Source: Pseudomonas sp. P818
GTDB lineage: Bacteria; Pseudomonadota; Gammaproteobacteria; Pseudomonadales; Pseudomonadaceae
Direction: 5' to 3'
Length of the DNA stretch: 64,000 bases
NCBI RefSeq assembly: GCF_000418555.1
Contig: NZ_ATKM01000005.1
Span: forward strand, 124,001 to 188,000
The notes beneath the pieces are model-generated. The model made no database searches. It was given only the letters and a program-made list of their open reading frames with translations, and had not been told where the DNA came from. Below are positions 664 through 60,926 of this stretch, one piece after another (position 1 is the first letter of the stretch; each line of letters starts with the position of its first letter). The translations under genes and the position numbers were made by a program.

Positions 664-810
664 CAACAGGCTGTTGAAAAAACTACCTGCGTTGTCTGGC
701 CGTCGTTAAAAACAGCCTCAAAATGCTCATTTACAACGCGTAAACTGCGCTTTTTCGGCTGTTTTTGCCTCGGCCAGCCTGCCTCGCCTACGTTTTTCAA
801 CGGCCTGTTG
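664..810. repeat. Intergenic repeat with terminal inverted repeats, copy 1
   Basis: This 147-bp element lies between the SPOR-protein gene and hslV. Its ends (664-683 and 791-810) are inverted repeats of about 20 bp with two mismatches. The core carries AAACTACCTGCGTTG, CGTTAAAAACAGCCT, a small stem-loop TTTAC-AACGC-GTAAA near 730-744, and GCCTCGCCTACGTTTTT. The same ordered blocks occur at 60730-60926 and, diverged, inside a coding gene at 53579-53717. It contains no ORF of interest and is probably a non-autonomous, MITE-like intergenic repeat. Confidence 0.75.
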
Positions 811-815
811 GGCGA

Positions 816-1490
816 TCAGCGGACCTGACGCTGCTGTAACAGCAGGTTGCTGTAGCCGTTGCCGGCCAGGGTCTTCTGCGCTGCCGCCAGTTGCTCGCGA
901 CTGGCGAAGGGGCCGACCAGCACGCGGTGCCAGGTCTCGTCGCGTACCTTGCCGGTTTCCACGCGCACGTTCTGCCCTAGCAGAATGATCTGCGCGCGCA
1001 CGGCATCGGCATCGTCGCGTTTGCGGAACGAGCCGGCCTGGAGGAAGAACTGCGTGGTCACCGGCGCGCTGGCCAGCACGGGCGGCGGAGGCGGTGGCAC
1101 CTGGCCGTTGAGCGCGGCTTCGGCGCGAGCGGTGTCGATCTTTGCGGCTTCTTCCGGGGTGACCGGCTTCTGCTCCGGTGCCGGTGGCGGCGTTTCCTCC
1201 AGCGCTTGCGGCAGGATCACTTCCGACTCCGGCAGCAGGGTGTAGAAGTCGTATTTGGGCCTGGCCGGCTCGGGCTGCGTCGGCTTCGGCTCGGGCTTGG
1301 TGCTGCGCACCTGCTCGCCCTTGTCGCGCTTGATTTCGTCACGGCCCGGTTCGAGACTGAACAGGAACATGAAGAAACCACCGACCACCAGGCCGCAGGC
1401 CAGCCAGATCCAGCCCGGTACGGGTTTCTTCGCCGGGGCCTGATAGCGACTGGCGCCGCGTTTCGGCGCCGGCTTCTTGCGCGCTGCCAT
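816..1490 (-). CDS. SPOR-domain membrane protein, FtsN-like
   Basis: Bitopic inner-membrane protein of 224 residues. It has a short basic, Lys/Pro/Arg-rich cytoplasmic N-terminus, one membrane segment at about residues 27-46, a Pro/Glu-rich periplasmic linker (about 60-140), and a C-terminal SPOR domain (about 147-222, starting FFLQAGSF). SPOR domains bind denuded septal peptidoglycan, so a role in cell division like FtsN is likely. It is the gene directly downstream of argS (the argS stop is at 1491-1493), as in P. aeruginosa. The essential-FtsN assignment itself rests on architecture only. Confidence 0.85.
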   Translation of the reverse strand: MAARKKPAPKRGASRYQAPAKKPVPGWIWLACGLVVGGFFMFLFSLEPGRDEIKRDKGEQVRSTKPEPKPTQPEPARPKYDFYTLLPESEVILPQALEETPPPAPEQKPVTPEEAAKIDTARAEAALNGQVPPPPPPVLASAPVTTQFFLQAGSFRKRDDADAVRAQIILLGQNVRVETGKVRDETWHRVLVGPFASREQLAAAQKTLAGNGYSNLLLQQRQVR

Positions 1491-3230
1491 TTACATGCGC
1501 TCCAGTGTTTCCAGGCCGAGCAGCTCCAGGCCCTGCTTGAGCGTGCGGCCGGTCAGGGCGGTCAGGCGCAGGCGGCTGTCACGGGTGGCCTCGTCTTCGG
1601 CGGCGAGAATCGGGCAGTTCTCGTAGAAGCTGGAGAACAGCCCGGCCAGGTCGTACAGGTAGCTGCACAGCATGTGCGGCGTGCCCTTGTCGGCGACGCT
1701 GGCGAGCAGCTCGCCAAACTGCGCCAGCTTGGCGGCCAGGGCCTGTTCCTGCTCGGCGACCAGGGCGATCTGCCCGCCGATCTCGTCGATGCCCTTGCCC
1801 AGCTTGCGGAACACGCCGGCCACGCGGGTGTAGGCGTACAGCAGGTAGGGCGCGGTGTTGCCCTCGAAGCTCAGCATCAGGTCGAAGTTGAAGCTGTAGT
1901 CGCTGGCGCGGTGCTTGGACAGGTCGGCGTACTTCACCGAGGCGATGCCGACTACGCGGGCGATGCGGCGCAGCTCGTCCTCGGCCAGTTCCGGATTCTT
2001 GCTCTTGACCAGCTCATAGGCGCGCTGCTCGGCCTCGTCGAGCAGTTGCACCAGCTTAACGGTGCCGCCGTCGCGGGTCTTGAACGGGCGACCGTCCGGG
2101 CCGTTCATGGTGCCGAAGCCCATGTGCTCCAGCTCCATGCTGGCGGGGACGAAACCGGCCAGGCGGGCGCAGGCGAAGACCATCTGGAAGTGCAGGGCCT
2201 GGCGCTGGTCGACGAAGTACAGCACGCGGTCAGCCTTGAGCACGCCCGCGCGGTAGCGGGTCGCAGCCAGGTCGGTGGTGGCGTACAGGTAGCCGCCACC
2301 GGCTTTCTGCACGATCAGCGGCAGCGGGTTGCCTTCGGCGTTCTTGAACTCGTCCATGAACACGCATTTGGCGCCGTTGTCCTCGGTCAGCAGGCCCTTG
2401 GCGGCGAGGTCGGCGACCACCTGTGGCAGGTCGTCGTTATAGGCGCTCTCGCCCTTGACGTCGGCCATGGAGAGCTTGACGCCGAGGCGGTCGTACAGCG
2501 CCTGGCAGTGCGACAGGGAAATGTCGTTGAAGCGATGCCACAGGCGCAGGCACTCGGCGTCGCCGGCCTGCAGCTGGACCACCAGTTCGCGGGCGCGGTC
2601 GGCGAACTCGGGCGACTCGTCGAAGCGTTTCTTCGCTGCGCGGTAGAAGCCTTCCAGGTCGGCCAGCTCGCTCTCGGCGGCCGCCGGGTTTTCCTGCATG
2701 TAGGCCAGCAGCATGCCGAACTGGGTGCCCCAGTCGCCGACATGGTTCTGGCGAATCACCGTGTCACCGAGAAACTCCAGCACCCGCGCCACGCCGTCGC
2801 CGATGATGGTCGAGCGCAGGTGGCCGACGTGCATTTCCTTGGCCAGGTTGGGCGCGGACAGGTCGACCACCACGCGCTGCGCCGGGCCGTTCTTGCGCAC
2901 GCCAAGTTTGGCATCGGCCAGTGCCGCTTCCAGACGCTGTGCCAGGGCATCACTGTTCTGGAAGAAGTTGAGGAAGCCGGGGCCGGCGATTTCCACCTTG
3001 GTGATCTGCTCGTCGGCCGGCAATGCTGCGATCAGCTTTTCGGCCAGGTCGCGCGGCTTCATGCCGGCCGGTTTGGCCAGCATCATGGCGATGTTGCTGG
3101 CGAAGTCGCCGTGACTCTTGTCCTTGGTGTTCTCCACCTGGATGACCGGCGTCAGGCCTGCAGGCAGCACGCCTTCGGCGGTCAGGCGGTCGAGGGCTTG
3201 CTGGATCAGGTGGCGAATGCTGTCTTTCAT
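1491..3230 (-). CDS. argS: Arginyl-tRNA synthetase
   Basis: Class I aminoacyl-tRNA synthetase charging tRNA-Arg. The 579-residue protein starts [13 protein letters not shown]. It has the HIGH-type signature as [12 protein letters not shown] near residue 128, and lacks a canonical KMSKS, as is usual in bacterial ArgRS (the region reads [19 protein letters not shown]). The C-terminal anticodon-binding domain ends [10 protein letters not shown] minus-strand TATAAT at 3273-3278 is a candidate -10 about 40 bp upstream of the start. The SPOR protein gene follows immediately and is probably cotranscribed. Confidence 0.98.
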
Positions 3231-3354: not shown

Positions 3355-5574
3355 CTAGAAAAGATCGATCGGGTCGACATCCAGCGACCAGCGCACCGCA
3401 CGGCCACTGGGCATTTGCTCCAGCGCATGCAGCCAATGGTTGAGCAGGCGGTGTAGCGGGGCGCGGGCATTGCCCTGCAGCAGCAGTTGCGCGCGAAAAC
3501 GTCCGGCGCGGCGTTCCATTGGCGCCGGTACCGGGCCGAGCAGTTCGATGCCGGACAGTCCCAACTCACCCAGCAGGTGCTCTGCCTCGCTGCAGGCCTC
3601 ATCGAGAAAACCTTCTGCCTGGCCGGGCTTGTGCGCTTCGGCGCGCAGCAGGGCCAGGTGGCAGAACGGCGGCAGGCCGGCACTGCGGCGCTCGCTCAGC
3701 GCCTGCTCGGCGAAGGCGAAGTAGCCCTGTTCGGTCAGTTGCACCAGCAGTGGATGGTCTGCCAGGTGGCTCTGAATGATCACCTTGCCCGGCTCCTCGG
3801 CACGCCCGGCGCGGCCGGCGACCTGTACGATCAGCTGCGCCATGCGTTCGCTGGCGCGAAAATCCGCCGAGAACAGGCCGCCATCGGCGTCGAGGATCGA
3901 CACCAGCGTCACCCGTGGGAAGTGGTGACCCTTGGCGAGCATCTGGGTGCCGACCAGGATGCACGGCTCGCCCTTGTTGATGGTGGTGAACAGGCGATCC
4001 ATGGCGCCCTTGCGCGAGGTGCTGTCGCGGTCGATGCGCAGCACCGGGTAGTCGGGGAACAGCAGCGCCAGGCGTTCTTCGGCACGCTCGGTGCCGGCGC
4101 CGACCGGGCGCAGGTCGACGTGCTGGCATTTTGGGCAGTTGCTCGGTTGCTTCTCGACATGGCCGCAGTGGTGGCAGCGCAGCTCCTGATAACGCTGGTG
4201 CACGGTCATGCGTGCATCGCAACGCGGGCACTCGGATAGCCAGCCGCAGTCGTGGCAGAGCAGGGTCGGGGCGAAGCCGCGGCGGTTGAGAAACACCAGC
4301 ACCTGCTGGCCGGCCGCCAGGGTCTGGGCGATGGCCTGCTGCATCGGTCCGGAGATGCCCGAGTCCAGTGGCCGGCTCTTCACGTCCAGGCGCAGGAAGC
4401 GTGGCTGGCTGGCGCCGCCGGCGCGCTGCGTCAGCTTGAGCAGGGCGTAGCGGCCGCTGTGGGCGTTGTGCAGGCTTTCCAGCGAGGGTGTGGCCGAGCC
4501 GAGGACGATGGGGATGTCTTCCTGGCGCGCGCGAACCAACGCCAGGTCACGGGCGTGATAGCGCAGGCCTTCCTGCTGTTTATAGGAGGCGTCGTGTTCT
4601 TCGTCGACGATGATCAACCCAGGGTTCTTCATCGGCGTGAACAGTGCCGAGCGGGTGCCGATGATGATGTCGGCCTCGCCATCGCGCGCGGCCAGCCAGG
4701 CATCGAGGCGATCGCGATCATTGACCGCTGAATGCAGCAGGGCGATGCGTGCGTTGAAGCGCCGGGCGAAACGGTCGAAGGTCTGCGGCCCGAGGTTGAT
4801 CTCCGGGATCAGCACCAGGGCCTGCTTGCCGGCTTGCAGGCATTGATGGATCAGTTGCAGGTAAACCTCGGTCTTGCCGCTGCCGGTGACGCCCGCCAGC
4901 AGGAAGGCATTGAACTGGCCCCAGCCCGACGCCACGGCATTCACCGCCGCGCGCTGTTCGGCGTTCAGCGGCAGTTCCGGCTGCGCCAGCCAGTGCGCGG
5001 GCTTGGGATGAGGCTGGGTGCGGCGCACCTCGACCCGTACCAGCCCCTTCTCATGCAGTAATTGCAGGCTGTCGCGGTTGAGTTGCAGCTGGCTGAGCAG
5101 GCTGTGGGCCACGCCGTGCGGGTGTTGTGCCAGTGCCTTGAGTGCGTCGCGCTGGCGCGGAGCTCGGGCCAGCCGTGGGTCGTCGACACTGGCGCCTTTG
5201 CTGGCCAGCCAGTAACGCTCCTGGCGAGTTTCGGCCGGCTCGCCCTGGCGCAGCAGTACCGGCAAGGCCCAGCTCAGGGTGTCGCCGAGGCTGTGCTGGT
5301 AGTACTGCGCTGTCCACAGACACAGTTTGAACAGCGGCGACGGCAGCGGTGGGCGAGCATCGAGCAGTTCCAGGGCGGGCTTGAGCTTGTCGAGTGGAAC
5401 TTCGCTCTGGCTGTCGACTTCCACCAGCACGCCGATTATCTCGCGGCGGCCGAAGGGCACGCGCAAGCGTACGCCTGGCTGCAAGGCACTGCGCGACACG
5501 CCACCGGGGGCGAGGTAGTCGAACAGGCGGCGCAGCGGCGAGGGCAGGGCAAGGCGCAGGATCAGGTTGGGCAA
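3355..5574 (-). CDS. priA: Primosomal protein N' (replication restart helicase PriA)
   Basis: Superfamily 2 DNA helicase that recognises stalled forks and loads the primosome. In its 739 residues I see the N-terminal 3'-DNA-binding domain, Walker A GVTGSGKTE at about residue 228, the DEEH box (VDEEHDASYKQ, about 325) and the cysteine-rich double zinc-binding insert (CHDCGW, CPRC, CHHC, CPKC, about 438-485). A C-terminal helicase lobe with QMLAKGHHFP follows. The protein ends DPIDLF. The length is normal for the family. It is transcribed towards argS. Confidence 0.98.
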   Translation of the reverse strand: MPNLILRLALPSPLRRLFDYLAPGGVSRSALQPGVRLRVPFGRREIIGVLVEVDSQSEVPLDKLKPALELLDARPPLPSPLFKLCLWTAQYYQHSLGDTLSWALPVLLRQGEPAETRQERYWLASKGASVDDPRLARAPRQRDALKALAQHPHGVAHSLLSQLQLNRDSLQLLHEKGLVRVEVRRTQPHPKPAHWLAQPELPLNAEQRAAVNAVASGWGQFNAFLLAGVTGSGKTEVYLQLIHQCLQAGKQALVLIPEINLGPQTFDRFARRFNARIALLHSAVNDRDRLDAWLAARDGEADIIIGTRSALFTPMKNPGLIIVDEEHDASYKQQEGLRYHARDLALVRARQEDIPIVLGSATPSLESLHNAHSGRYALLKLTQRAGGASQPRFLRLDVKSRPLDSGISGPMQQAIAQTLAAGQQVLVFLNRRGFAPTLLCHDCGWLSECPRCDARMTVHQRYQELRCHHCGHVEKQPSNCPKCQHVDLRPVGAGTERAEERLALLFPDYPVLRIDRDSTSRKGAMDRLFTTINKGEPCILVGTQMLAKGHHFPRVTLVSILDADGGLFSADFRASERMAQLIVQVAGRAGRAEEPGKVIIQSHLADHPLLVQLTEQGYFAFAEQALSERRSAGLPPFCHLALLRAEAHKPGQAEGFLDEACSEAEHLLGELGLSGIELLGPVPAPMERRAGRFRAQLLLQGNARAPLHRLLNHWLHALEQMPSGRAVRWSLDVDPIDLF

Positions 5575-9712: not shown

Positions 9713-12124
9713 CTAGAACAGATCGATCGGCGCCATTTCGTCAGCCGGCAGCGGGCTGCCGGGAGCGCCCATGCCGGGTTCGAATTCGCTCATCGGCGGC
9801 GGCGAGTCCTCGCTCTTGAACAGTTCGAAGTACGCATCCGGCGTGCCAGGTGCAGCGGCGCGGCCGCTGACCGGATCAACGCGCAGGGTCAACAGGCCCT
9901 TGGGTTCCTTGGGTAGATGGTTGGGGCGGTCTTTGAGCGCTGCGCCCATGTAGTTCATCCAGATCGGCAGGGCCACGGTGCCGCCATACTCGTGCCGGCC
10001 CAAGCTTTCCGGCTGATCGAAGCCAGCCCAGACGGTGGTCACGTAGTCGGCGTTGTAACCGGAGAACCAGCTGTCCTTGGACTCGTTGGTGGTGCCGGTC
10101 TTGCCCGCCAGGTCGTTACGCCCCAATGCCAGGGCGCGGCGACCGGTGCCGCGCTTGATCACATCCTGCAGCATGCTGGTCATGATGTAGGCCGTGCGCT
10201 CGTCGATGATCTGCTCGGCCACCTTGGGTTCTTCCAGAGGCAGATCATCGGTCGCGTTCACCGTCAGGTTGGCATTCTCCTCGGTCGGCTCGCTGCCGGG
10301 GACGCGCGCCGGGTTGGCGCGGAACAGCAGTTTGCCATTGCGATCTTCGATGCGTTCGATCAGGTAGGGCTCGATCTTGTAACCGCCGTTGGCGAAGGTG
10401 GCCCAGCCTTCGGCGATTTCCATCGGCGTCAGGCTGGCGGTGCCGAGTGCCAGCGACAGGTTGCGTGGCAGGTCCTGCGGGGCGAAGCCGAAACGTTCGA
10501 TGTAGCGCAGGCTGCGGTCGATGCCCATGTCCTGCAGCAGGCGGATCGAGACCAGGTTGCGCGACTTGTACAGTGCCTCGCGCATGCGAATCGGGCCGAG
10601 GAAGGTGTTGTTGTCGTTCTTCGGCCGCCACTTCTGTGATAGGTAGTCGTCGGAGAGGATGATCGGCGCATCGTTGACCAGTGTCGCCGCGGTGTAGCCG
10701 CTATCCAGTGCCGCGCTATAAATGAAGGGTTTGAAGCTGGAGCCCGGCTGACGCTTGGCCTGTACGGCGCGGTTGTAGTTGCTCTGGTCGAAGGAGAAAC
10801 CGCCGACCAGTGCCTGAATGGCGCCGCTATAAGGATCGAGGGAAACCAGCGCGCTCTGCGCCGCCGGCACTTGGGTAAAGCGCAGGCTGCCATCTTCCTG
10901 GCGCTGCACGCGCACGATATCGCCGACCTGGGCGACGTCACCGGGTTGTTGTGGGCGCGGGCCAAGACTGTTGGTATTGAGGAAGGGGCGTGCCCATTTC
11001 ATGCTGTCCCACGCCACGGCCTGCTCTTCGCCATTGCGGGTCAGCACCAGGATGCCGCTCTTCTCCACCTGGGTCACCACCGCAGGCTCCAGGCCACCGA
11101 TACTGCGGAACTTGCCCAGTTCGGCAAGCCAGGCTTCGCGGGTCATGCCTGGCAGGCGGCTCTCGGGACCGCGGTAGCCGTGGCGCTGGTCATAGGCGAT
11201 CAACCCGTCACGCAGCGCGGTGTTTGCCACTTCCTGCAGTTGGCTGGGCACGGTGGTGGTGACATTGAAACCTTCGGTGTAAGCCTCGCTGCCATAGCGA
11301 CCGACCATCTCCGCACGCGCCATCTCGGCTATATAAGGTGCGCTCAGTTCGGGAGCAGGTACGTGGTAGCGGGCATCGACTTCTTCGGCCAGGGCTTGCT
11401 CGTAGCTGGCCTGGTCGATGCGGCCAAGGCGATACAGGCGGCCGAGAATCCAGTCGCGGCGTTCCTTGGCGCGTGTCGGGTTGACCAGAGGGTTGTAGCG
11501 CGACGGGGCTTTCGGCAGTCCGGCAATCATCGCCATCTGCGCCAGATTCAGGTCACGGATCGACTTGCCGTAGTACACCTGAGCGGCAGCTTCGATGCCG
11601 TAGGCGCGGTGGCCGAGGTAGATCTTGTTGACGTACAGCTCGAGGATCTCGTCCTTGCTCAGTTCACGTTCGATCTGCAGGGCCAGGAGAATTTCTGTGG
11701 CTTTGCGCGAGAAGCTGCGCTCGCTGGTGAGGAAAAAATTCTTCGCCACCTGCATGGTGATGGTGCTGCCGCCGCTCTGAATCTGACCGCTTTTCAATAA
11801 TTGCGTGGCAGCGCGCATCAGGCTGGTCACATCGACGCCATAATGGTTGGCGAAATTATCGTCTTCTGCTGCCAGCAGGGCGCTGATGAATTCCTTGGGG
11901 ATCTCGTCGAAGCGAATGGGCGAGCGGCGCATCTCGCCGAACTCGGCGATCAGCTTGGCATCGCTGCTGTAAACGCGCAGCGGGATCTGCAGCTGGACCT
12001 GACGCAGCGACTCGACGGAAGGAAGGGTCGGGCTAAGATAAAGAAACGCACCGCTGAAACTGAGCAACAGCCCACAAAAAACGGCAACGAAAGACCACCA
12101 GATAAACTTCAGCAGGCGTATCAA
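9713..12124 (-). CDS. ponA: Penicillin-binding protein 1A (bifunctional PBP)
   Basis: Class A PBP, inner-membrane peptidoglycan glycosyltransferase/transpeptidase, 803 residues. One N-terminal membrane anchor (about 7-30) precedes the GT51 domain, with EDDNFANHYGVD (about 87-98) and QVAKNFFL. An OB-like insert and then the transpeptidase domain follow, with the SxxK serine in PGSSFKPFIY (about 460), a second-motif region around KSRNLVSI, and KTGTTNESKD (about 650). The acidic C-terminus ends APIDLF. It is divergent from pilM, the order known from P. aeruginosa. A candidate -10 lies at 12194-12199. Confidence 0.98.
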   Translation of the reverse strand: MIRLLKFIWWSFVAVFCGLLLSFSGAFLYLSPTLPSVESLRQVQLQIPLRVYSSDAKLIAEFGEMRRSPIRFDEIPKEFISALLAAEDDNFANHYGVDVTSLMRAATQLLKSGQIQSGGSTITMQVAKNFFLTSERSFSRKATEILLALQIERELSKDEILELYVNKIYLGHRAYGIEAAAQVYYGKSIRDLNLAQMAMIAGLPKAPSRYNPLVNPTRAKERRDWILGRLYRLGRIDQASYEQALAEEVDARYHVPAPELSAPYIAEMARAEMVGRYGSEAYTEGFNVTTTVPSQLQEVANTALRDGLIAYDQRHGYRGPESRLPGMTREAWLAELGKFRSIGGLEPAVVTQVEKSGILVLTRNGEEQAVAWDSMKWARPFLNTNSLGPRPQQPGDVAQVGDIVRVQRQEDGSLRFTQVPAAQSALVSLDPYSGAIQALVGGFSFDQSNYNRAVQAKRQPGSSFKPFIYSAALDSGYTAATLVNDAPIILSDDYLSQKWRPKNDNNTFLGPIRMREALYKSRNLVSIRLLQDMGIDRSLRYIERFGFAPQDLPRNLSLALGTASLTPMEIAEGWATFANGGYKIEPYLIERIEDRNGKLLFRANPARVPGSEPTEENANLTVNATDDLPLEEPKVAEQIIDERTAYIMTSMLQDVIKRGTGRRALALGRNDLAGKTGTTNESKDSWFSGYNADYVTTVWAGFDQPESLGRHEYGGTVALPIWMNYMGAALKDRPNHLPKEPKGLLTLRVDPVSGRAAAPGTPDAYFELFKSEDSPPPMSEFEPGMGAPGSPLPADEMAPIDLF

Positions 12125-12193
12125 AATGTTCGGAATTCCAAGTAAAAGAATGAGTTAAGCAGGAGCCGTGGCTCAAAGGGAAAAGCTGATCAC

Positions 12194-18945: not shown

Positions 18946-20532
18946 ATGACCAGTTTGCATGCTGACGAAGCTTTTCTGGCCCATTACCAGTTCAGCCACG
19001 ACCCCTTTGCGCCGCGCGTTCCAGGCTTCAAGTTCTTCCCGGCACAGCGCAAGCCCGTGCTGGGGCAGTTGCATCACCTTGCGCGCTACAGTCAGCTGCT
19101 GCTGGCGGTAGTCGGGCCTGAGGGTAGCGGCAAGACGCTGCTGCGTCAGGCCTTGGTTGCCAGTACCAACAAGCAGGCGGTGCAGAGCATCGTGATTGCT
19201 CAGGGCGTGACGGGCAGCGAGGCGTTGTTGCGTCAAATAGCGCAGGGCTTGTCCATTGCCCAGGCTGATGTTCGCTCGATTCTGGCGCAGGTCGGACAGC
19301 TGGCGTTGACTGGTCAGGAGGTTTACCTGCTGATCGATGATGCGGATCAGCTGGATGATGTCGCGCTGAAGAATCTGCTGGTGCTCGCGGCGGGGGGCGA
19401 TGAAGGGCGTCCGCATGTCTTCCTGTTTGCCGAGCATGAATTGCTGGCTCGACTGGAGTCGCTGGCGGGCGGCGAAGAGTGCTATCACGCGATCGAGCTT
19501 CAGCCCTATGCCGAGGAAGAAACGCGCGAATACCTCGCGCAGCGGCTCGAAGGGGCTGGGCAAGGCATCGAATTGTTGACCGAAGAACAGGTCGAGGATA
19601 TTCATGCACGTTCCCAGGGGTGGCCTGGAGCGATCAATCAGGAGGCGCGGGAGCTGCTGGTTGAGCAGATGCTTGCGCAGCGTGCGGCTGGTCGTGGTGC
19701 TGCAGGGGGTGGTTTCACTTTGCCGAAGAAGCATTTGCTGGCGCTGGCGGTGGTCTTGGTAGGTGTCGCAGCCGCCTGGTTCATGCAGGGTCGAGAATCT
19801 TCCTCGCCTGCGCCTGTAGCGAGCAATACCTCGCTGCCCTTGCAGTCCTCCAGTCCGGCAGCAGAAGCTGAGGAGCCCGAGCAGGCGCCTGCATCGCAAG
19901 GCCGTACGCCTGCCATTGAATTTGCAGGTGCCAGTCAGCCACTGCCGTTGCCACTGGTAGGTGAGCCACAAGCAGTGATTCGTCAGCCATTGGCCGAAGC
20001 AGCCGGCGAGGAGCTGGATAACTTCGAGCCGCCGGCTGTGCCTGAACCCTCGACAGTTACTCCGCCATCGGCTCCAATCGCTGCTGCACCTGCACCTGCA
20101 CCTGCACCTGCACCTGCACCTGCACCTGCACCTGCACCTGCACCTGTAAAGCAGCCTGAGCCGGCGGCGCCCAAGCCCGCAGCTCCTGCACCGGCACCGG
20201 CACCGGCGGCTAAGCCTGCGCCTGCTCCTGCTGTGGCGCCCACTACTGCTTCGAGTAACTGGTATGCGCAGCAGCCGGCGTCCCGCTATGCCCTGCAGGT
20301 GGTTGGGTCTCGTTCGGAGGCCAATATCCAGGCGCTGGTGCGTGAGGGCGGCAGCGAGTACCGCTACTTCAAGAAAATCCATCAAGGGCAGCCGCTGTAC
20401 GTGCTGACCTATGGTAGCTTCTCCAGTCGTGACGCCGCTCAGGCTGCTGTGAAAACCCTGCCTGCCAAGCTTCAGGCTGGTAAGCCCTGGCCTCGCACCC
20501 TGGGCAGCATTCAGCAGGAAATGAGCCGCTAG
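18946..20532 (+). CDS. DamX-like AAA ATPase / SPOR-domain protein
   Basis: Bitopic inner-membrane protein of 528 residues. It has an N-terminal ExeA-like AAA domain with Walker A GPEGSGKTLL (about 57-66) and Walker B VYLLIDDADQ (about 126-135). One membrane helix (about 264-283), a long Ala/Pro-rich linker including a pure (Ala-Pro)10 stretch, and a C-terminal SPOR domain (about 445-525, YALQVVGSRSEAN) follow. The SPOR domain suggests septal localisation, like DamX. It is placed directly after aroB (10-bp gap), as in other gammaproteobacteria. The (AP)n linker is encoded by a hexanucleotide array (20086-20145). Confidence 0.9.
   Translation: MTSLHADEAFLAHYQFSHDPFAPRVPGFKFFPAQRKPVLGQLHHLARYSQLLLAVVGPEGSGKTLLRQALVASTNKQAVQSIVIAQGVTGSEALLRQIAQGLSIAQADVRSILAQVGQLALTGQEVYLLIDDADQLDDVALKNLLVLAAGGDEGRPHVFLFAEHELLARLESLAGGEECYHAIELQPYAEEETREYLAQRLEGAGQGIELLTEEQVEDIHARSQGWPGAINQEARELLVEQMLAQRAAGRGAAGGGFTLPKKHLLALAVVLVGVAAAWFMQGRESSSPAPVASNTSLPLQSSSPAAEAEEPEQAPASQGRTPAIEFAGASQPLPLPLVGEPQAVIRQPLAEAAGEELDNFEPPAVPEPSTVTPPSAPIAAAPAPAPAPAPAPAPAPAPAPVKQPEPAAPKPAAPAPAPAPAAKPAPAPAVAPTTASSNWYAQQPASRYALQVVGSRSEANIQALVREGGSEYRYFKKIHQGQPLYVLTYGSFSSRDAAQAAVKTLPAKLQAGKPWPRTLGSIQQEMSR
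20086..20145 (+). repeat. In-frame hexanucleotide microsatellite (GCACCT)x10
   Basis: Ten perfect GCACCT units encode alternating Ala-Pro in the periplasmic linker of the DamX-like protein. Perfect identity at codon level, not only at protein level, points to slippage. Copy-number change would keep the frame and alter linker length. Confidence 0.93.
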
Positions 20533-48898: not shown

Positions 48899-49320
48899 GC
48901 GATGGCCCTCTGCACGGCATCGATGAAGACCTGTGGCGAGGCGAACTGCATTTCCCGCGTGGCGATTTCCACGGCCACCTGCACGGTGCTGCCGCGAGTC
49001 ATGCGCTCGCCCGTCTCGGCGTCGCTGATCAGGTAGTTGATCTTCAGGCGGCTCTCCCATTCGACCAGGTCGGCGCGCACGATGATGCGCTGGCCGAACT
49101 GCGCGCCGCGCACGTAGCGAACCTGCAGGTCGATCACCGGCCAGGCGTAGCCGGAGTCGCGCATCTGCCGGTAGTTGTGGTCGAGCTTGTCGAGCAACGC
49201 GCAGCGCGCCTGCTCGAAGTATTTGACGTAGTGGCCATGCCAGACGATCTCCATCATGTCGACGTCATAGAACTGCACCTGCAGCTCGATTTCCGCCTGC
49301 AGTACGCCCTTGCTACGCAT
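48895..49320 (-). CDS. Acyl-CoA/ACP thioesterase-like hotdog protein
   Basis: The 141-residue 4-hydroxybenzoyl-CoA thioesterase-family protein has FYDVDMMEIVWHGHYVKYFEQ (about 18-38), with the catalytic Asp of the DxDxxxxxxH pattern, and a typical hotdog sheet. ATG 49320 is preferred over an ORF start seven codons earlier. It overlaps the ammonia lyase gene upstream by 8 bp and the LolA-like gene by 4 bp (GTGA). In APE clusters this enzyme may hydrolyse or edit ACP-bound polyenes. Confidence 0.85.
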   Translation of the reverse strand: MRSKGVLQAEIELQVQFYDVDMMEIVWHGHYVKYFEQARCALLDKLDHNYRQMRDSGYAWPVIDLQVRYVRGAQFGQRIIVRADLVEWESRLKINYLISDAETGERMTRGSTVQVAVEIATREMQFASPQVFIDAVQRAIA

Positions 49321-50854
49321 ACAGCCTCCAGTGCTGGGCACGGATACGTTCCAGGCACAGGCGCAGCTCGCCTTCCAGGGCGCGGTCTTCGATCACCGGC
49401 GGGAAGTCGTTGGCCAGTTGCTCACGCATCGCCGCCAGCGGCGCCGGGATGTCGCGCTTGCCGGCACGCTCGCGCAGCCAGACGCCCTGGTTGGCGGCCA
49501 GCAAGGTGGCGGCGGCCACCTGCTCGGTCAGCTCCAGGCTGCGCAGCGCATCGCGTGCGGCGATGGTGCCCATGCTCACCTTGTCCTGGTTGTGGCATTC
49601 GGTGGAGCGCGAGAACACGCTGGCCGGCAGGGTGTTCTTCAGCGCTTCGGCGGTCCAGGCGCTGGCGCCGATCTGCACGGCCTTGAAGCCATGGTTGATC
49701 ATTGCCGTTTCCACTGGTGCGCCGGACAGATTGCTCGGCAGGCCATGGTTGTAACGGGTGTCGACCAGCAGGGCGAGCTGGCGGTCGAGCAGGTCGGCGA
49801 CGTTGCCCACCAGGTTTTTCAGGCTGTCCATGGCGAAGGCGATATGCCCACCATAGAAATGCCCACCGTGCAGGGTGCGTTCGGTCTCGGCATCGAACAA
49901 TGGGTTGTCGTTGGCGCTGTTGAGTTCGGTCTCGATGAACTGACGCAGCAGGCCCAGGCTGTCGGCCAGCACCCCGAGCACGTGCGGTGCGCAACGGATC
50001 GAGTAGCGATCCTGCAGGCGGTGCAGCGGCGGCAGCGGCGCCTCGACGGCCAGGTCCTGGCGAATCCAGGCGGCGACCTGGGTCTGACCAGGATGAGGTT
50101 TGGCAGCGAACAGGCGCTCGTCGAAATGCTCCGGGTTGCCTTCCAGGGCGATCACGTTGAGCGCGGTGATGCGCGTGGCCAGCTTCAGCAGGTAGTCGGC
50201 GCGGGCGTAGGCCAGGCAGGCCAGGGCGGTCATTACCGCGGTGCCGTTCATCAGCGCCAGGGCTTCCTTCGGACGCAGGGTCAGCGGCGTCCAGCCCAGT
50301 TCGCGATGCACATCCGCCGCACTGCGTCGTTCGCCCTTGTACAGCACCTCGCGCTCACCGCTGAGGGTGGCGGCGACGTAGGACAGCGGGGTGAGATCGC
50401 CGCTGGCACCGACCGACCCTTCTTCCGGTATCAGTGGCAGCACGTCGTGATCGATGAACGCCTGGATGCGCTCCAGCAGCTCCACCCGTACCCCGGACAC
50501 ACCGTAGCACAGCGACTGCAAGCGGGCGGCGAGCACGGCACGCGTGCTGGGTGCGTCGAGCAGCTTGCCCAGACCGCAACCATGGAAGGTGAACAGGTGC
50601 TGGGGCAGGGCCTCGACCTGGTGCAGCGGCACTGCCACCACGCAGGAGTCGCCATAGCCGGTGGTGACGCCGTAGATCACGCCTTCCTTGTCCAGCAGGG
50701 TGTCGAGAAAGCGTGCGCCCTTGGCGATCTTTTCCCGGTAGGCGGCATCGTCCTGCAACTGGGCGCGAGCCTGGCGCTGCGACAGGGCTACGATGTTCTC
50801 GATGGTCAGGGCGCGCTCGCCGAAGATCACCGGCTCAGGCTGGTATGTCGTCAT
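49313..50854 (-). CDS. Aromatic amino acid ammonia lyase (HAL/TAL/PAL family)
   Basis: MIO-containing ammonia lyase of 513 residues. The Ala-Ser-Gly triad is intact (residues 150-152, SVGASGDLTPLSYV), and Tyr61 in the loop IYGVTTGYGD is the catalytic tyrosine. The selectivity pair that is Ser-His in HAL and His-Leu in TAL is Phe90-His91 here (LFTFHGCGLG), so the substrate is not histidine by the textbook rule. Making an aryl polyene starter from tyrosine or phenylalanine (coumarate or cinnamate) is expected. ATG 50854 (MTTYQPEPV) is preferred over the 25-codon upstream extension. Confidence 0.88.
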   Translation of the reverse strand: MTTYQPEPVIFGERALTIENIVALSQRQARAQLQDDAAYREKIAKGARFLDTLLDKEGVIYGVTTGYGDSCVVAVPLHQVEALPQHLFTFHGCGLGKLLDAPSTRAVLAARLQSLCYGVSGVRVELLERIQAFIDHDVLPLIPEEGSVGASGDLTPLSYVAATLSGEREVLYKGERRSAADVHRELGWTPLTLRPKEALALMNGTAVMTALACLAYARADYLLKLATRITALNVIALEGNPEHFDERLFAAKPHPGQTQVAAWIRQDLAVEAPLPPLHRLQDRYSIRCAPHVLGVLADSLGLLRQFIETELNSANDNPLFDAETERTLHGGHFYGGHIAFAMDSLKNLVGNVADLLDRQLALLVDTRYNHGLPSNLSGAPVETAMINHGFKAVQIGASAWTAEALKNTLPASVFSRSTECHNQDKVSMGTIAARDALRSLELTEQVAAATLLAANQGVWLRERAGKRDIPAPLAAMREQLANDFPPVIEDRALEGELRLCLERIRAQHWRLYA

Positions 50855-51782
50855 CTCGCTTCCAGAATGGGTAGAAGTTGAACCATTGTTGTGGGGCGTC
50901 CAGGCAGTGTTCGCCCAGGCGTTGCGCATAGCGTTGTGTCCAGTCGCGGATCACCTGATCGCGCTCGCTGCGCTTCCAGGTCACCGCGTCGGCGAAGTGC
51001 TCCAGGCGCACCTGGTAGCGGCCGTCGATCTTCAGGCAATGAATCAGGTCGACCTGGCACTGCAGCAGGCCGGCCAGCAACCAGGGGCCCTGGGGGAACG
51101 CGGCCGGCAAACCGAGGAAGTCGACCACCACGCGGCGCCCGCCGTGCAGGGGCACGCGATCACCGGCGATAGCCAGCCATTCACCGCGTTCCAGGCGTTC
51201 GGCCAGTTGCAGCATGATCGCCGGGTCCAGTTCGCTGACCTGGATCAGGCGCAGGTGGCTGGCGCCGGACTCGCCCAGCAGCCGGTTGAAGCGCTCGGCA
51301 TGCTTGGTGTGCACCAGCACGTTCATGCGCACCTTTTCGCCCAGCTCGGCCAAGGCCCGGCACACTTCCAGATTGCCCAGGTGCGCGCCTACCAGAAGGC
51401 GGCCACGGCTGTCGCCGTGCAGTCGTTCACGAAGATTGTCGGGGTCGACCAGCTGCAGTTGCTGCAGCGCCAGGCGGCCATTCCACACATCGACTTTGTC
51501 CAGCAGGCTGTCGGCGAAGGCGAAGAACTGACGCAGCACCGACCTCCGGCTGGGGCGCAAGTCGGGACGTGCACTCCAGGCTGCCAGGTTGTGTTGATAC
51601 TCCTGGATGCTGGTGCGTGCGCTGCGGCCAAAGGTGTAGAAATACAGGACGATCAGATACAGCAGCGGCACCAATGGACGGCGGCCAAGCAGACGCGCGG
51701 CCGCGACGGTGAAACGCATCAGCAGAAAACTGCCGCGTTCCTTCTGCCGCGCCCAGTGTTCGTTATGCTCGGCAGTGCTCAT
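50835..51782 (-). CDS. Lipid A acyltransferase-family (LpxL-like) protein
   Basis: The 315-residue membrane-associated acyltransferase starts MSTAEHNEHWARQKERGSF. An N-terminal hydrophobic segment (about 32-52) precedes the HX4E catalytic motif VGAHLGNLEVCRA (about 133-145) and GDRVPLHGGRRVVVDFLG. The C-terminus has WFNFYPFW. It overlaps the ammonia lyase by 20 bp and the glycosyltransferase by 4 bp. In APE clusters such proteins, often fused to a glycosyltransferase, acylate the polyene's anchor. Confidence 0.85.
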   Translation of the reverse strand: MSTAEHNEHWARQKERGSFLLMRFTVAAARLLGRRPLVPLLYLIVLYFYTFGRSARTSIQEYQHNLAAWSARPDLRPSRRSVLRQFFAFADSLLDKVDVWNGRLALQQLQLVDPDNLRERLHGDSRGRLLVGAHLGNLEVCRALAELGEKVRMNVLVHTKHAERFNRLLGESGASHLRLIQVSELDPAIMLQLAERLERGEWLAIAGDRVPLHGGRRVVVDFLGLPAAFPQGPWLLAGLLQCQVDLIHCLKIDGRYQVRLEHFADAVTWKRSERDQVIRDWTQRYAQRLGEHCLDAPQQWFNFYPFWKRDDDIPA

Positions 51783-52525
51783 GCGACCAGCCTGCGCCAG
51801 AGAATGCGTGGCGCGCGCAGCAGCATGCCGAAGAACAGGCGGGCATGCATGGCCGAAATCAGCAGATTGTCGTGCCACAGGCGAAAGTGCGAGAGGCCAT
51901 CGGCCGGGTAATGTACGCGAGTCGGCAACCAGTGCATCGGCTGTTCGCGCCAGGCCATGCGCACCAGGATCTCGGTATCGAAATCCATGCGCCGACCGAG
52001 TTTCACGCTGTCGAGCAGCGCCAGGGTGGCGGGCAGCGGATAGACGCGAAAGCCGCACATGGAGTCGCGAACCTGCAGCGACAGGCAGTTGATCCACACC
52101 CATACGTGGGTCAGGTAGCGGGCATAAAGGCGCGATCTGGGCACGCTCGCATCGTATTGCGGGTAGCCGCACACCATCGCTTCTGGATGCGCTCGAGCGG
52201 TGTCGAGGAAATCGTCGATCCGGCTCAGGTCGTGCTGGCCGTCGGCATCGACCTGCAGGGCATGGCTGTAACCGAGGCGCGCCGCTTCGCGCAGGCCGGC
52301 CATCACCGCGCCGCCCTTGCCCAGGTTGCCGGGCAGGCGCAGTAGATGAGCGTCCGCCTGTTGCGCCAGTTGGTCCATGACTGCAGCGCAGGAGGCGCTG
52401 GAACCATCGTCTACCAGCACGCAGGGCAGCCCGGCACGCTGCAGTTCGCTGACCACGCCGGGCAATGGCCGCTCGTGGTTGTAAACCGGGATCACCGCGC
52501 AGGGCTTGAAGCCTGACTCAGCCAT
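51779..52525 (-). CDS. Family 2 glycosyltransferase
   Basis: The 248-residue GT-A enzyme has AVIPVYNHERPLPGVVSELQ (about 10-29), the nucleotide-sugar-binding LVDDGSSASC, LRLPGNLGKGGAVMAGLREA (about 63-82) and the DxD motif QVDADGQHDLS (about 90-100). It is followed immediately (ATGA overlap) by the LpxL-like gene; in several APE clusters the two are one fused protein, here they are separate. It probably attaches a sugar or acts on an undecaprenyl-type carrier to anchor the polyene in the outer membrane (inference). Confidence 0.87.
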   Translation of the reverse strand: MAESGFKPCAVIPVYNHERPLPGVVSELQRAGLPCVLVDDGSSASCAAVMDQLAQQADAHLLRLPGNLGKGGAVMAGLREAARLGYSHALQVDADGQHDLSRIDDFLDTARAHPEAMVCGYPQYDASVPRSRLYARYLTHVWVWINCLSLQVRDSMCGFRVYPLPATLALLDSVKLGRRMDFDTEILVRMAWREQPMHWLPTRVHYPADGLSHFRLWHDNLLISAMHARLFFGMLLRAPRILWRRLVA

Positions 52526-54323
52526 GGGCCGGCTCCAGCAGAATTCGACCGGAGGAGCAGGGCGCATCGCCATTGTGGTAAGCGAAGTAGAGCTTGCCGC
52601 GTTCGGCATCGAAACGCAGGGTCAGCTGCAGGGTGTCGCCGGGGCGTACCAGTTGCTGGAACTTGAGCACTTCCATGCCGGCGAAGCGAGGTGGCAGCTG
52701 GGCGATCAGGTCACGGGCCAGCTGCTGAGCCCAGTCCACCTGCACCACGCCAGGCAGCACCGGGGTTTGCGGGAAGTGGCCGGTGAAATGGGCAAGGTCC
52801 AGCGGTACCAGCAGCTGCAGGTGCCATTGGCCGTCGCGCTCTTCAGCGCTCACGGGCGCTACCCGCGTCGGCCGCGGGGCAGTCAGTAGACTGTCGATCT
52901 GGCTTTGCGGCAGTTTGCCCTGGCTGCTGTAGGGCAGTTCCGGCAACAGGCGCCAGCGACGCGGCAGGGCAATGGCCTCGCAGTGATCGGCCAGGTGCCG
53001 GCGCAGGGTCTCGGTCAGGGTGCGGCGGCCCTGGTTGCGCAGTGCGTATACGCCGCTCGGGCTGAGAGCCAGCACGGCGCCGAGGAAGGCGCGGCCTTCC
53101 TGAACGACACCGAGACGGCCGTCGACGACCCAGTCATGGCTGATCAGCGCTTGTTCGAGCATGGGCAGGGAGATGCGTTTTTCTTCCAGCTTGACGATGC
53201 GGTCGAGGCGCCCACGCAGGACGAAACGGCCGTCAGCGCCGATCTCGGCGGCATCCGCGCTCTGTTCGATATGCCCGGCCGGCAGGTATGGCGAGACGAT
53301 GCGCAGGGCGCCGGTTTCATCGAGGCTCAATTCGACCCCGCAAAATGGCTGCCAGGCCGTGGCGCCCTGGCGCCAGCCGATACCGCCGGTTTCCGAGCTG
53401 CCGTAGATTTCCGTTGGCCACTGACCCAGGCGTTCGTGCAGGGCCTGAGCTGCTTCTGCCGGCAGGGCACCGCCGGAGGAAAAGACCTGTTTGACCCGGC
53501 TCAGCGCTGGCCAGTCGAGGTTGTCGCTCATGCGCTTGAGCAAGGCCGGGCTGGCGACCCAGGCGAAGCCAGGGGCGGCGCAAGCTACTGCGCTCGATGC
53601 TGCCGCGTTGAGAAGCGGCTCGGCCTGCTCATTTACCGCCTGTAAACTCCGCGGCCTCGCCTCTTCTCGCCTTGCATCCTCTTCGCTCGCTACGCATGCA
53701 CTGCCCCTGGCGATAGCCAGGCTCGCCCGTTGCAGGTCTTCGGGAAAAGGCAGGGCTCGACGATACAGAGGGCGACCGGCACACAGGGGCCAGAGCAGGC
53801 GGAACAGCAGGCCGTAGATATGTTGGCAGGCCACGCTGCCGAGCATGGTCGCCATACCCAGGTTGGCGCCCCAGAGTTGTTCCAGCGCCTCGACCTCATT
53901 GGCCAGCTGCGTCAGGCTCTTGTCGATCAGCTTGGGTTCGCCGCTGGAGCCTGAGGTACACAGGGTCAGGCGGCAGGCGTCGAGCTGCAGGCGAGCGCCA
54001 GGCAGCGCGGTGGCGGCCTCGAATTGGTCAAGGCTGTCCAGCCACAGGTCGACCTGCGTGGCCAGACGCTGTCGCGTTTGCGCCTGGGCATCGGCCGGCA
54101 GCAGTACCTGCACACCGGCGCGCCAGGCACCGAGCAGCGCGACGGCCAGTTCACCGGCATCTTCCAGATACAGCGCTACGCGCTGAGCTCCGCGCGCCTG
54201 CAGGGCCGCCGCCAGAGACAAGGCGCGGTGGCGCAGCTCAGGCTGGTGAAGGTTCGGTTCCAGGGCGACCAGGCGCTCCGGGTGAGCCTCCAGCAGCAGG
54301 TCGGTGAGGGGCAGCCAGGTCAT
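52518..54323 (-). CDS. apeH: Fused AMP-dependent ACP ligase and hotdog dehydratase (ApeH-ApeI)
   Basis: The 601-residue two-domain protein starts MTWLPLTDLLLEAHPERLVALE. The N-terminal adenylation domain (about 1-470) has LTLCTSGSSGEPKLIDKS (P-loop, about 119-136), IYGSSETGG (about 307-315) and the hinge GRLDRIVKLEEKRIS. It loads the aryl starter on ACP. The C-terminal domain (about 480-601) is a FabA/Z-type dehydratase with FTGHFPQTPVLPGVVQVDW. Residues about 203-248 are encoded by an in-frame repeat element not expected in the family. It overlaps its neighbours by 4-8 bp. Confidence 0.87.
   Translation of the reverse strand: MTWLPLTDLLLEAHPERLVALEPNLHQPELRHRALSLAAALQARGAQRVALYLEDAGELAVALLGAWRAGVQVLLPADAQAQTRQRLATQVDLWLDSLDQFEAATALPGARLQLDACRLTLCTSGSSGEPKLIDKSLTQLANEVEALEQLWGANLGMATMLGSVACQHIYGLLFRLLWPLCAGRPLYRRALPFPEDLQRASLAIARGSACVASEEDARREEARPRSLQAVNEQAEPLLNAAASSAVACAAPGFAWVASPALLKRMSDNLDWPALSRVKQVFSSGGALPAEAAQALHERLGQWPTEIYGSSETGGIGWRQGATAWQPFCGVELSLDETGALRIVSPYLPAGHIEQSADAAEIGADGRFVLRGRLDRIVKLEEKRISLPMLEQALISHDWVVDGRLGVVQEGRAFLGAVLALSPSGVYALRNQGRRTLTETLRRHLADHCEAIALPRRWRLLPELPYSSQGKLPQSQIDSLLTAPRPTRVAPVSAEERDGQWHLQLLVPLDLAHFTGHFPQTPVLPGVVQVDWAQQLARDLIAQLPPRFAGMEVLKFQQLVRPGDTLQLTLRFDAERGKLYFAYHNGDAPCSSGRILLEPAHG
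53579..53717. repeat. In-frame copy of the intergenic repeat inside apeH
   Basis: The order of blocks matches the repeats at 664-810 and 60730-60926: CTACTGCG, CGTTG, TGCTCATTTAC (11 bases identical to copy 1), then GTAAACTCCGC with the same 5-base loop TTTAC-CGCCT-GTAAA, then GCTCGCTACGC. Terminal inverted repeats are eroded. The element adds about 46 codons to the adenylation domain and keeps the frame open. Limits are judged by eye. Confidence 0.7.
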
Positions 54324-60729: not shown

Positions 60730-60926
60730 AGGGCACCTCTAAAAACTACCTGAGTTGCCATCACTGCGTTAAAAACAGACTCGGAGGCCGCTTGCGGCCA
60801 ACGCACTTTAGTGCGGCCCCGAGGGGCGAGCGGAGCGAGTCATGCTCATGTACAAAAGTACACTCCGCTTCCTCGCCTGTTTTTGCCTTGTGCTGACTGC
60901 CTCGCCTACGTTTTTAGAAGTGCCCT
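60730..60926. repeat. Intergenic repeat with terminal inverted repeats, copy 2
   Basis: AGGGCACCTCTAAAAAC (60730-60746) and GTTTTTAGAAGTGCCCT (60910-60926) are inverted repeats with one mismatch. The core shares AAAAACTACCTG, CGTTAAAAACAG, TGTTTTTGCCTTG and GCCTCGCCTACGTTTTT with the element at 664-810, plus an extra block with GCGGCC/CGCTTGCGGCC palindromes and a GTAC-AAAA-GTAC stem. It fills most of the trxC/metY gap. Confidence 0.75.

Follow-up and report, generated by a model that had tools for sequence, protein, structure and literature searches.

Palindromic elements that lie in frame within bacterial genes have been described in Rickettsia, Wolbachia, enterobacteria, and others. The Rickettsia palindromic elements (RPEs) are dispersed palindromes of ~150 bp that occur in frame in unrelated protein genes, as outlined in the passage of PMC10969869 devoted to them, and WPE-like inserts in Wolbachia addA, addB, and priA are judged non-inactivating in the corresponding section of PMC4224334. 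GTAG/CGTC-tagged REPs are palindromic and partly located in replication and repair genes, with uvr and recBCD named in the relevant part of PMC3733652. Enterobacterial RU-1, RU-2, and RU-3 are presented in the account of these families in PMC2759123 as MITE-like intergenic sequences, 103-168 bp long, that contain open frames and are located inside annotated genes as well. Among pseudomonads, R178 of P. fluorescens is characterized in its entry in PMC2718517 as a 101-bp repeat with internal 11-bp inverted repeats, present in 18, 28, and 9 copies in three strains. Given these precedents, a preliminary description of the locus analyzed here was too strong in calling an in-frame repeat of this kind rare in bacteria.

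Here, we analyze a palindromic insert in an ApeH-like ligase gene of Pseudomonas sp. P818. The stretch of DNA examined as a whole, 64,000 nucleotides long and hereafter termed the window, is located on contig 5 of a 5.09-Mb host genome (G000).

The insert in the ApeH-like gene and its dispersed relatives

The features of the window relevant to the insert are:

52518-54323, minus strand: ApeH-like gene, 601 aa, fusion of an AMP-binding ligase and an ApeI-like dehydratase (open frame; Pfam)
~53574-53714, minus strand: in-frame insertion of 141 bp (47 codons) relative to insert-free homologues, residues ~204-250 (protein and codon alignments)
53568-53576, no strand assigned: outer palindrome arm GCCAGGGGC, read in the sequence, pairing with 53703-53711 in DNA and RNA folds
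53703-53711, no strand assigned: outer palindrome arm GCCCCTGGC, read in the sequence, pairing with 53568-53576 in DNA and RNA folds
53632-53646, no strand assigned: central hairpin TTTAC-N5-GTAAA (motif search of the window)
49313-50929, minus strand: aromatic amino-acid ammonia-lyase gene of the same locus, insert-free here (open reading frame; alignment with the homologues in L113 and G602)
669-804, plus strand: further copy of the element (covariance model R1, E 1.2e-28)
60732-60922, plus strand: further copy with an extra interior stem-loop of ~55 bp (R1, E 2.8e-16)

The minus-strand frame at 52518-54323 runs uninterrupted across the insert. Pfam assigns an AMP-binding domain (5.9e-18) and a C-terminal ApeI-like domain (3.2e-15) to its product, and the neighboring open reading frames resemble, as judged by eye, the acyl carrier, acyltransferase, and lyase of an APE locus. 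The gene thus combines an AMP-binding ligase fused to an ApeI-like dehydratase with a position within an APE locus, and we retain the name ApeH from the preliminary description. The protein is 85-88% identical to its counterparts in L039-L045, a group of P. alcaliphila (now placed in Ectopseudomonas by NCBI), P. composti, P. chengduensis, P. mendocina FFL34, and similar strains. Compared with the nearest insert-free homologues, which comprise 554 aa, the window protein has a net gain of 141 bp or 47 codons. Accordingly, the in-frame insert of the preliminary description stands, but its extent of 46 residues at 53579-53717 is revised to 47 codons at ~53574-53714.

Several lines of evidence identify this segment as a copy of a dispersed repeat. 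The motif TTTAC-N5-GTAAA, searched with at most one mismatch, has two matches in the window, both exact (730-744 and 53632-53646), a number reached in none of 100 shuffles of the window. Likewise, TGCTCATTTAC occurs without mismatch at window positions 724 and 53626; with two mismatches its 12 matches are not above chance (8.4 expected). The covariance model R1 was trained on 44 copies, 25 from the host genome and 19 from other genomes, which were not each verified as intergenic and from which the apeH insert and both other window repeats were left out. Its best match in the window is nevertheless the apeH insert (53571-53706, plus strand, 122.5 bits, E 3.1e-32), followed by the two further copies at 669-804 and 60732-60922, in agreement with the two intergenic repeats of the preliminary description; the next match has E 0.3. 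A chance likeness of short blocks is excluded by the shuffles of the hairpin motif together with the R1 match, and the apeH insert, lying in an open 601-aa frame, is a full copy of a nested palindrome of ~136 bp.

The insert DNA matches 40 places in its own genome including itself (best other match E 9e-19, 78% identity), and R1 finds at least 75 copies there at E 1e-3 among the best 150 of 2090 candidates scored. Across the order Pseudomonadales, at least 46 of 115 genomes and at least 37 of 83 genera have matches at E 1e-8 (up to 28 candidates scored per genome), with 1 to at least 28 matches per genome and more than 10 in several other families; the element family is therefore widespread. 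As in other in-frame coding palindromic elements, the sequence is palindromic, dispersed, and present in many copies. From these sequence comparisons and a structural model (see below), we consider it highly probable that a MITE-like nested palindrome of ~136-144 bp, represented by at least 75 copies in its own genome, has inserted into a variable loop of apeH and is tolerated as a translated, disordered loop in a working enzyme.

Some copies carry additional sequence. The extra stem-loop of ~55 bp in the copy at 60732-60922 lies within the palindrome (about 60783-60842), and the copies L036, L038, L019, and L027 contain other foreign segments at inner positions, as if the element itself were a target for foreign segments. 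In L013, a copy of the repeat (1501-1613) lies inside a cobalamin riboswitch match of 355 bases (1397-1751, minus strand; model length 189), and the element may have inserted into the riboswitch. Apart from the element, the window contains an Rfam match to asponA antisense RNA (11852-12146, plus strand, 185.7 bits) and a short tandem repeat of CTGCACCTGCAC (20072-20161).

Recurrence at the apeH site and in other proteins

The ApeH alignment consists of the window protein and the best 80 of 457 apeH loci, all from Pseudomonas or related metagenome bins. Within this set, the segment is absent from 74 of 81 sequences, whole in five, and reduced to remnants of 12-15 residues in two (L041, P. chengduensis; L042, P. 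composti LY1), which excludes a segment native to Pseudomonas ApeH and, within Pseudomonas and related bins, bears out the absence that the preliminary description proposed to check. The whole segment occurs in the window, P. alcaliphila (L039), P. composti CCUG 59231 (L040), a metagenome-assembled Pseudomonas (L047), and Pseudomonas sp. 2FG (L055, like L113 below a named strain). In the latter four it likewise matches R1 and is a repeat copy. A peptide search of 398 genomes of the genus returned five full apeH matches among those listed, with G266 as an additional genome; the full-length, frame-kept insert is thereby found in six genomes (window, L039, L040, L047, L055, and G266). The insertion site lies in a stretch of ApeH already variable between species. 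L041 corresponds to L039 minus 93 bp flanked by two CGAGCG repeats, so remnants can arise via in-frame deletion. Element copies are also found directly after the apeH stop codon in L066 (4721-4856), L065 (4675-4810), and L085 and L093 (both 4687-4822); these occur in three clades and have relatives that do not carry them.

Other proteins were searched with the in-frame peptide in 398 genomes of the genus and 298 of the family, and the open frames were then read. Since a peptide search sees only copies that keep the frame, not gene-breaking ones, and only best matches were listed, no rate of in-frame insertion can be derived from it. Among the matches listed, the element is in frame in five proteins besides ApeH, six in total, and the copies found all use one reading frame, the one searched. 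4-Hydroxyproline epimerase bears it in G381, G260, and G378 as well as in G417 of another genus; the G378 protein scores above the NF010577 cut-off, and the site is empty in 19 of 19 relatives read. RecC carries the insert in G060 (taken as P. taeanensis) and G320 (above the TIGR01450 cut-off), and of its relatives G013 is empty and G014 has a remnant-like HSAAA. In an AlgX-like protein (G214) the insert follows the Pfam domain and is close to the C-terminus. Five genomes from a single other genus have it in a nitrate reductase/formate dehydrogenase-like molybdoenzyme, where several NCBIfam matches begin or end near the insert and no NCBIfam match attains its cut-off. Finally, the aromatic ammonia lyase of the APE locus, which is insert-free in the window, has the element in frame in G602 of another genus and in P. 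dryadis (L113), where the frame is covered to the end of the locus. The element is thus in frame in several unrelated proteins and absent from homologues, with empty homologues aligned for apeH, epimerase, RecC (one empty, one remnant-like), and ammonia lyase. The stretches behind these assignments were read in two batches. The first, of 20, comprised two apeH and five in-gene copies elsewhere (L182, L187, L193, L195, L196); 13 were rejected as lying, by eye, upstream of a start codon, antisense, or otherwise outside genes. The second, of 14, comprised L234, taken as apeH of the genome of L040, and eight in-gene copies (L235-L240, L243, L244), and five (L241, L242, L245-L247) were rejected by eye.

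In several genes, the insert recurs at one site in distant lineages. In a tree of the apeH flanks, built without G266, full inserts fall into three separate clades, each of which also has insert-free members. L055 groups with L085 and L093, both without an in-gene insert, and the flanking DNA of L047 is 94-95% identical to that of L069, which has no trace of the insert. The inserts of L047 and the window are 86% identical from end to end and 94% within the core compared, with flanks of 71-77%, and have in common one stem pair changed on both sides. In successive 100-bp segments, the identity of L047 is 88-99% with L069, dropping to 79% in the final segment, and 63-86% with the window outside the insert; the codons adjoining its insert follow L066. 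Homologous recombination of a longer segment is thus rejected for L047, as its insert flanks resemble L069 and L066 and not the window; a very short tract is possible. In the ammonia lyase, L113 and L087 are 97.5% identical in the outer 240 bp and 100% in the inner 60 bp left of the insert, and 96.7% (inner) and 98.8% (outer) on its right, and L087 is without the 141 bp. The lyase inserts of L113 and G602 are 91% identical, their flanks 84-90%.

Compared with the 44 dispersed copies only, most in-gene inserts have a same-site insert as nearest relative. Independent insertion is possible for L055 and G266, whose distance to dispersed copies is much like that to same-site ones, for the epimerase, where the third-nearest copies and dispersed ones score alike, and for the AlgX-like copy, which has a dispersed copy as its nearest relative (0.93). 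Differential loss, short-tract recombination, and targeted re-insertion are all possible routes to same-site recurrence. A single ancient insertion, ancestral to every same-site insert and lost precisely in most lineages, is a possible but doubtful account. It agrees with the same-site nearest relatives of the apeH (window, L039, L040, L047), epimerase, and RecC copies, at 0.93-0.95 for L047 to the window clade, 0.92-0.99 at best for the epimerase, and 0.92 for RecC; moreover, the element changes slowly in general, and the copies after apeH are patchy too. However, the empty lyase site is almost identical in L087, L109, L082, and L117, and loss would have to restore that form repeatedly, and L087 and L069 lack the insert despite their close identity to L113 and L047, respectively, around it. 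As four relatives share this nearly identical empty form, gain is favored for L113. We tentatively suggest, as a minority view among these routes, that the palindromes move between alleles of one gene in different Pseudomonadaceae species in a homing-like manner, arriving at the same codon site and in the same frame with little or no donor flank and being translated as a loop, with the DNA hairpin rather than the peptide under selection.

Pairing, frame, and boundaries of the element

The element is a nested palindrome around the central TTTAC/GTAAA hairpin, with 136 model positions and 29 pairs. In the 44 copies, 95.4% of the cells of these pairs pair, and 20 of the 29 pairs show double changes on both sides. 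Four of five covariation measures were attained by none of 500 shuffles and the fifth (further pair types) by two, and sliding the partners by 1-3 columns lowers pairing to 36-52%. Pairing also extends to 17 in-gene copies outside the model training (461 of 493 cells). The conserved unit thus appears to be the DNA palindrome and not the peptide, with stems that change on both sides at once, also within genes.

Strong covariation would equally be expected if the element acted as a terminator or structured RNA and occurred in genes only incidentally, and the RNA fold of the coding strand of the insert is indeed unusually stable (z -3.82), a stability that the DNA reading does not need. We regard such an RNA as unlikely, yet worth keeping in mind. 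The element has no Rfam match in the window or in eight loci with copies, where the sole match is the cobalamin riboswitch around a copy, and it is also found in the middle of open reading frames. G-T cells can pair in single-stranded RNA. With one constant T-G column set aside, the 44 copies have 10 G-T and 26 A-C cells, which fits pairing at the DNA level better; in the in-gene copies, the numbers (five G-T outside the constant column versus four A-C) are too small to decide. From these cells we infer that the stem constraint acts on DNA rather than RNA. Single-strand DNA folding energy on its own is not convincing evidence, the fold of the insert being only slightly better than its shuffles (z -1.24). 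As the RNA reading is about the function of the family, it is compatible with a palindrome inserted into, and tolerated by, apeH.

The outer arms of the apeH insert (53568-53576 and 53703-53711) are perfect, and beside them lies an imperfect direct repeat, CTGGCTATCGCC/CTGGCTTCGCC, which is missing from the empty alleles read. In nine in-gene copies (RecC and nitrate reductase copies not counted), 14-16 of 17-19 outer-arm positions are Watson-Crick within the copy. The arms vary from site to site, and groups of dispersed copies have a common arm type. L053 (6469-6605) and L052 constitute a filled/empty pair in which 137 bp lie between two TGACCA copies, a clean 6-bp duplication; L056 carries the same insert as L053. 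At the lyase site of L113 and L087, no target duplication was seen.

In the reading frame used by the in-gene copies, the core is open in 26 of 42 dispersed copies, as against one and none in the remaining two frames of that strand; a frame on the reverse strand is open from end to end in 18 of 44 copies. When stop-free frames over the matched stretch were compared for 30 copies of the host genome, the apeH copy had the longest two-sided frame (376 + 347 codons). In two other copies of this genome, L031 and L038, at least one frame is free of stops for 50 or more codons to either side.

Probable tolerance within the ligase and relation to known elements

On the preferred reading, a MITE-like nested palindrome would have inserted into a variable loop of apeH. 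Its tolerance would follow from three properties: one orientation and frame of the element is often free of stops, its length in apeH is a multiple of three, and the site appears to be a permissive loop at a helix-strand junction of the ligase domain. A disordered loop of 47 residues would then be translated and the enzyme left working. Deletions that keep the frame, between short repeats in the arms, can remove the insert piece by piece.

Codon comparisons separate the insert from its surroundings. Between the window and L039, both insert-bearing, the flanking codons have dN 0.074 and dS 0.585 (dN/dS ~0.13). Between lineages, flank dN/dS is ~0.3 (window-L047 0.197/0.715, window-L055 0.225/0.702, L047-L055 0.219/0.777) and insert dN/dS ~0.7 (0.131/0.189, 0.236/0.309, and 0.194/0.281 for the same pairs). 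The enzyme is thus constrained, the peptide little. In an AlphaFold2 model based on 38 sequences (mean pLDDT 83, pTM 0.61), whose best fold matches are acyl and aryl ligases, pLDDT falls below 50 at residues 209-249, between a helix (194-206) and a strand (253-257); most other ten-residue blocks are at 80 or above, and pLDDT is likewise under 50 in the short stretches 125-129 and 375-382. The low values at 209-249 may in part reflect that only four of the 37 other aligned sequences have the full insert. The insert therefore probably forms an extra, translated, disordered loop of 47 residues, as far as the model indicates, and codon data and model together suggest that this loop is probably tolerated and the enzyme not destroyed.

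Domestication, as assumed in the preliminary description, would give the extra loop a selected protein-level role in ApeH, which we consider improbable. The insert is full-length with its frame kept in six genomes and, between the window and L039, less diverged than its flanks (no synonymous difference in 35 sites and three nonsynonymous ones, compared with 174.5 synonymous differences in 430 sites of the flanks). However, low divergence also marks six orthologous copies outside apeH, which are 91.3-98.6% identical between G000 and G177 (taken as P. alcaliphila) in surroundings of 85.5-92.7%. This control compared 40 of 75 host copies with 40 of 65 G177 copies in 150-bp stretches that include ~7 bases either side of the element, and yielded seven pairs, of which L267/L300 was dropped for its weak flank match. 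Slow change is therefore a general property of the element and not peculiar to apeH, which in turn weakens low divergence as proof of a recent arrival. Further, domestication is at odds with the insert dN/dS of ~0.7 between lineages, with the loss of most of the insert in the close relatives L041 and L042 and its absence from others, and with the disordered loop of the model. Although 47 additional residues could impair folding of the ligase domain, damage to the ligase with a gene drifting to a pseudogene, close to the destroyed activity considered earlier, is very unlikely in view of the purifying selection on the flanks between insert-bearing genes, the frame open in six genomes, and the site in a stretch variable between species.

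The six different proteins with the palindrome in frame suggest that such a repeated DNA hairpin can become coding sequence and persist, and this in free-living bacteria whose enzymes are easy to study. The filled and empty alleles in the nearly identical L113 and L087 open the questions of movement and same-site recurrence to testing, as is likewise the case for what an enzyme does with a foreign loop of 47 residues. Annotators should be aware that segments of this kind do not belong to the enzyme family.

Compared with the systems described above, the element is most readily set beside RPE and WPE, going by the descriptions in the cited passages: all are palindromic, dispersed, and in frame in unrelated proteins, but RPE and WPE belong to another bacterial group, and compensatory stem changes within genes and same-site recurrence across genera are seen in the Pseudomonas element. 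With the REPs, as described in the cited part of PMC3733652, it shares the palindrome and the occurrence in recBCD, RecC being one of its hosts; REPs are stem-loops of 20-40 bp, however, in contrast to the nested ~136 bp with 136 model positions and 29 pairs found here. RU-1, RU-2, and RU-3 are alike by their published description but have other hosts. R178 is entered among intergenic repeats in the relevant section of PMC2718517, whereas the present element is also found in genes; by that description, it may belong to the same family. Classical MITEs are likewise short and dispersed, and no gene of its own is seen in the element, which has one clean 6-bp duplication (L053/L052); yet MITEs have fixed terminal inverted repeats, and the arms here are specific to site or group. 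In the open-licence PMC literature searched, none of the papers listed reported pseudomonad genes with in-frame copies of this family. By analogy, the element thus looks to behave like the RPEs, while the family itself and its recurrence at the same sites look like a novel form of this known behavior.
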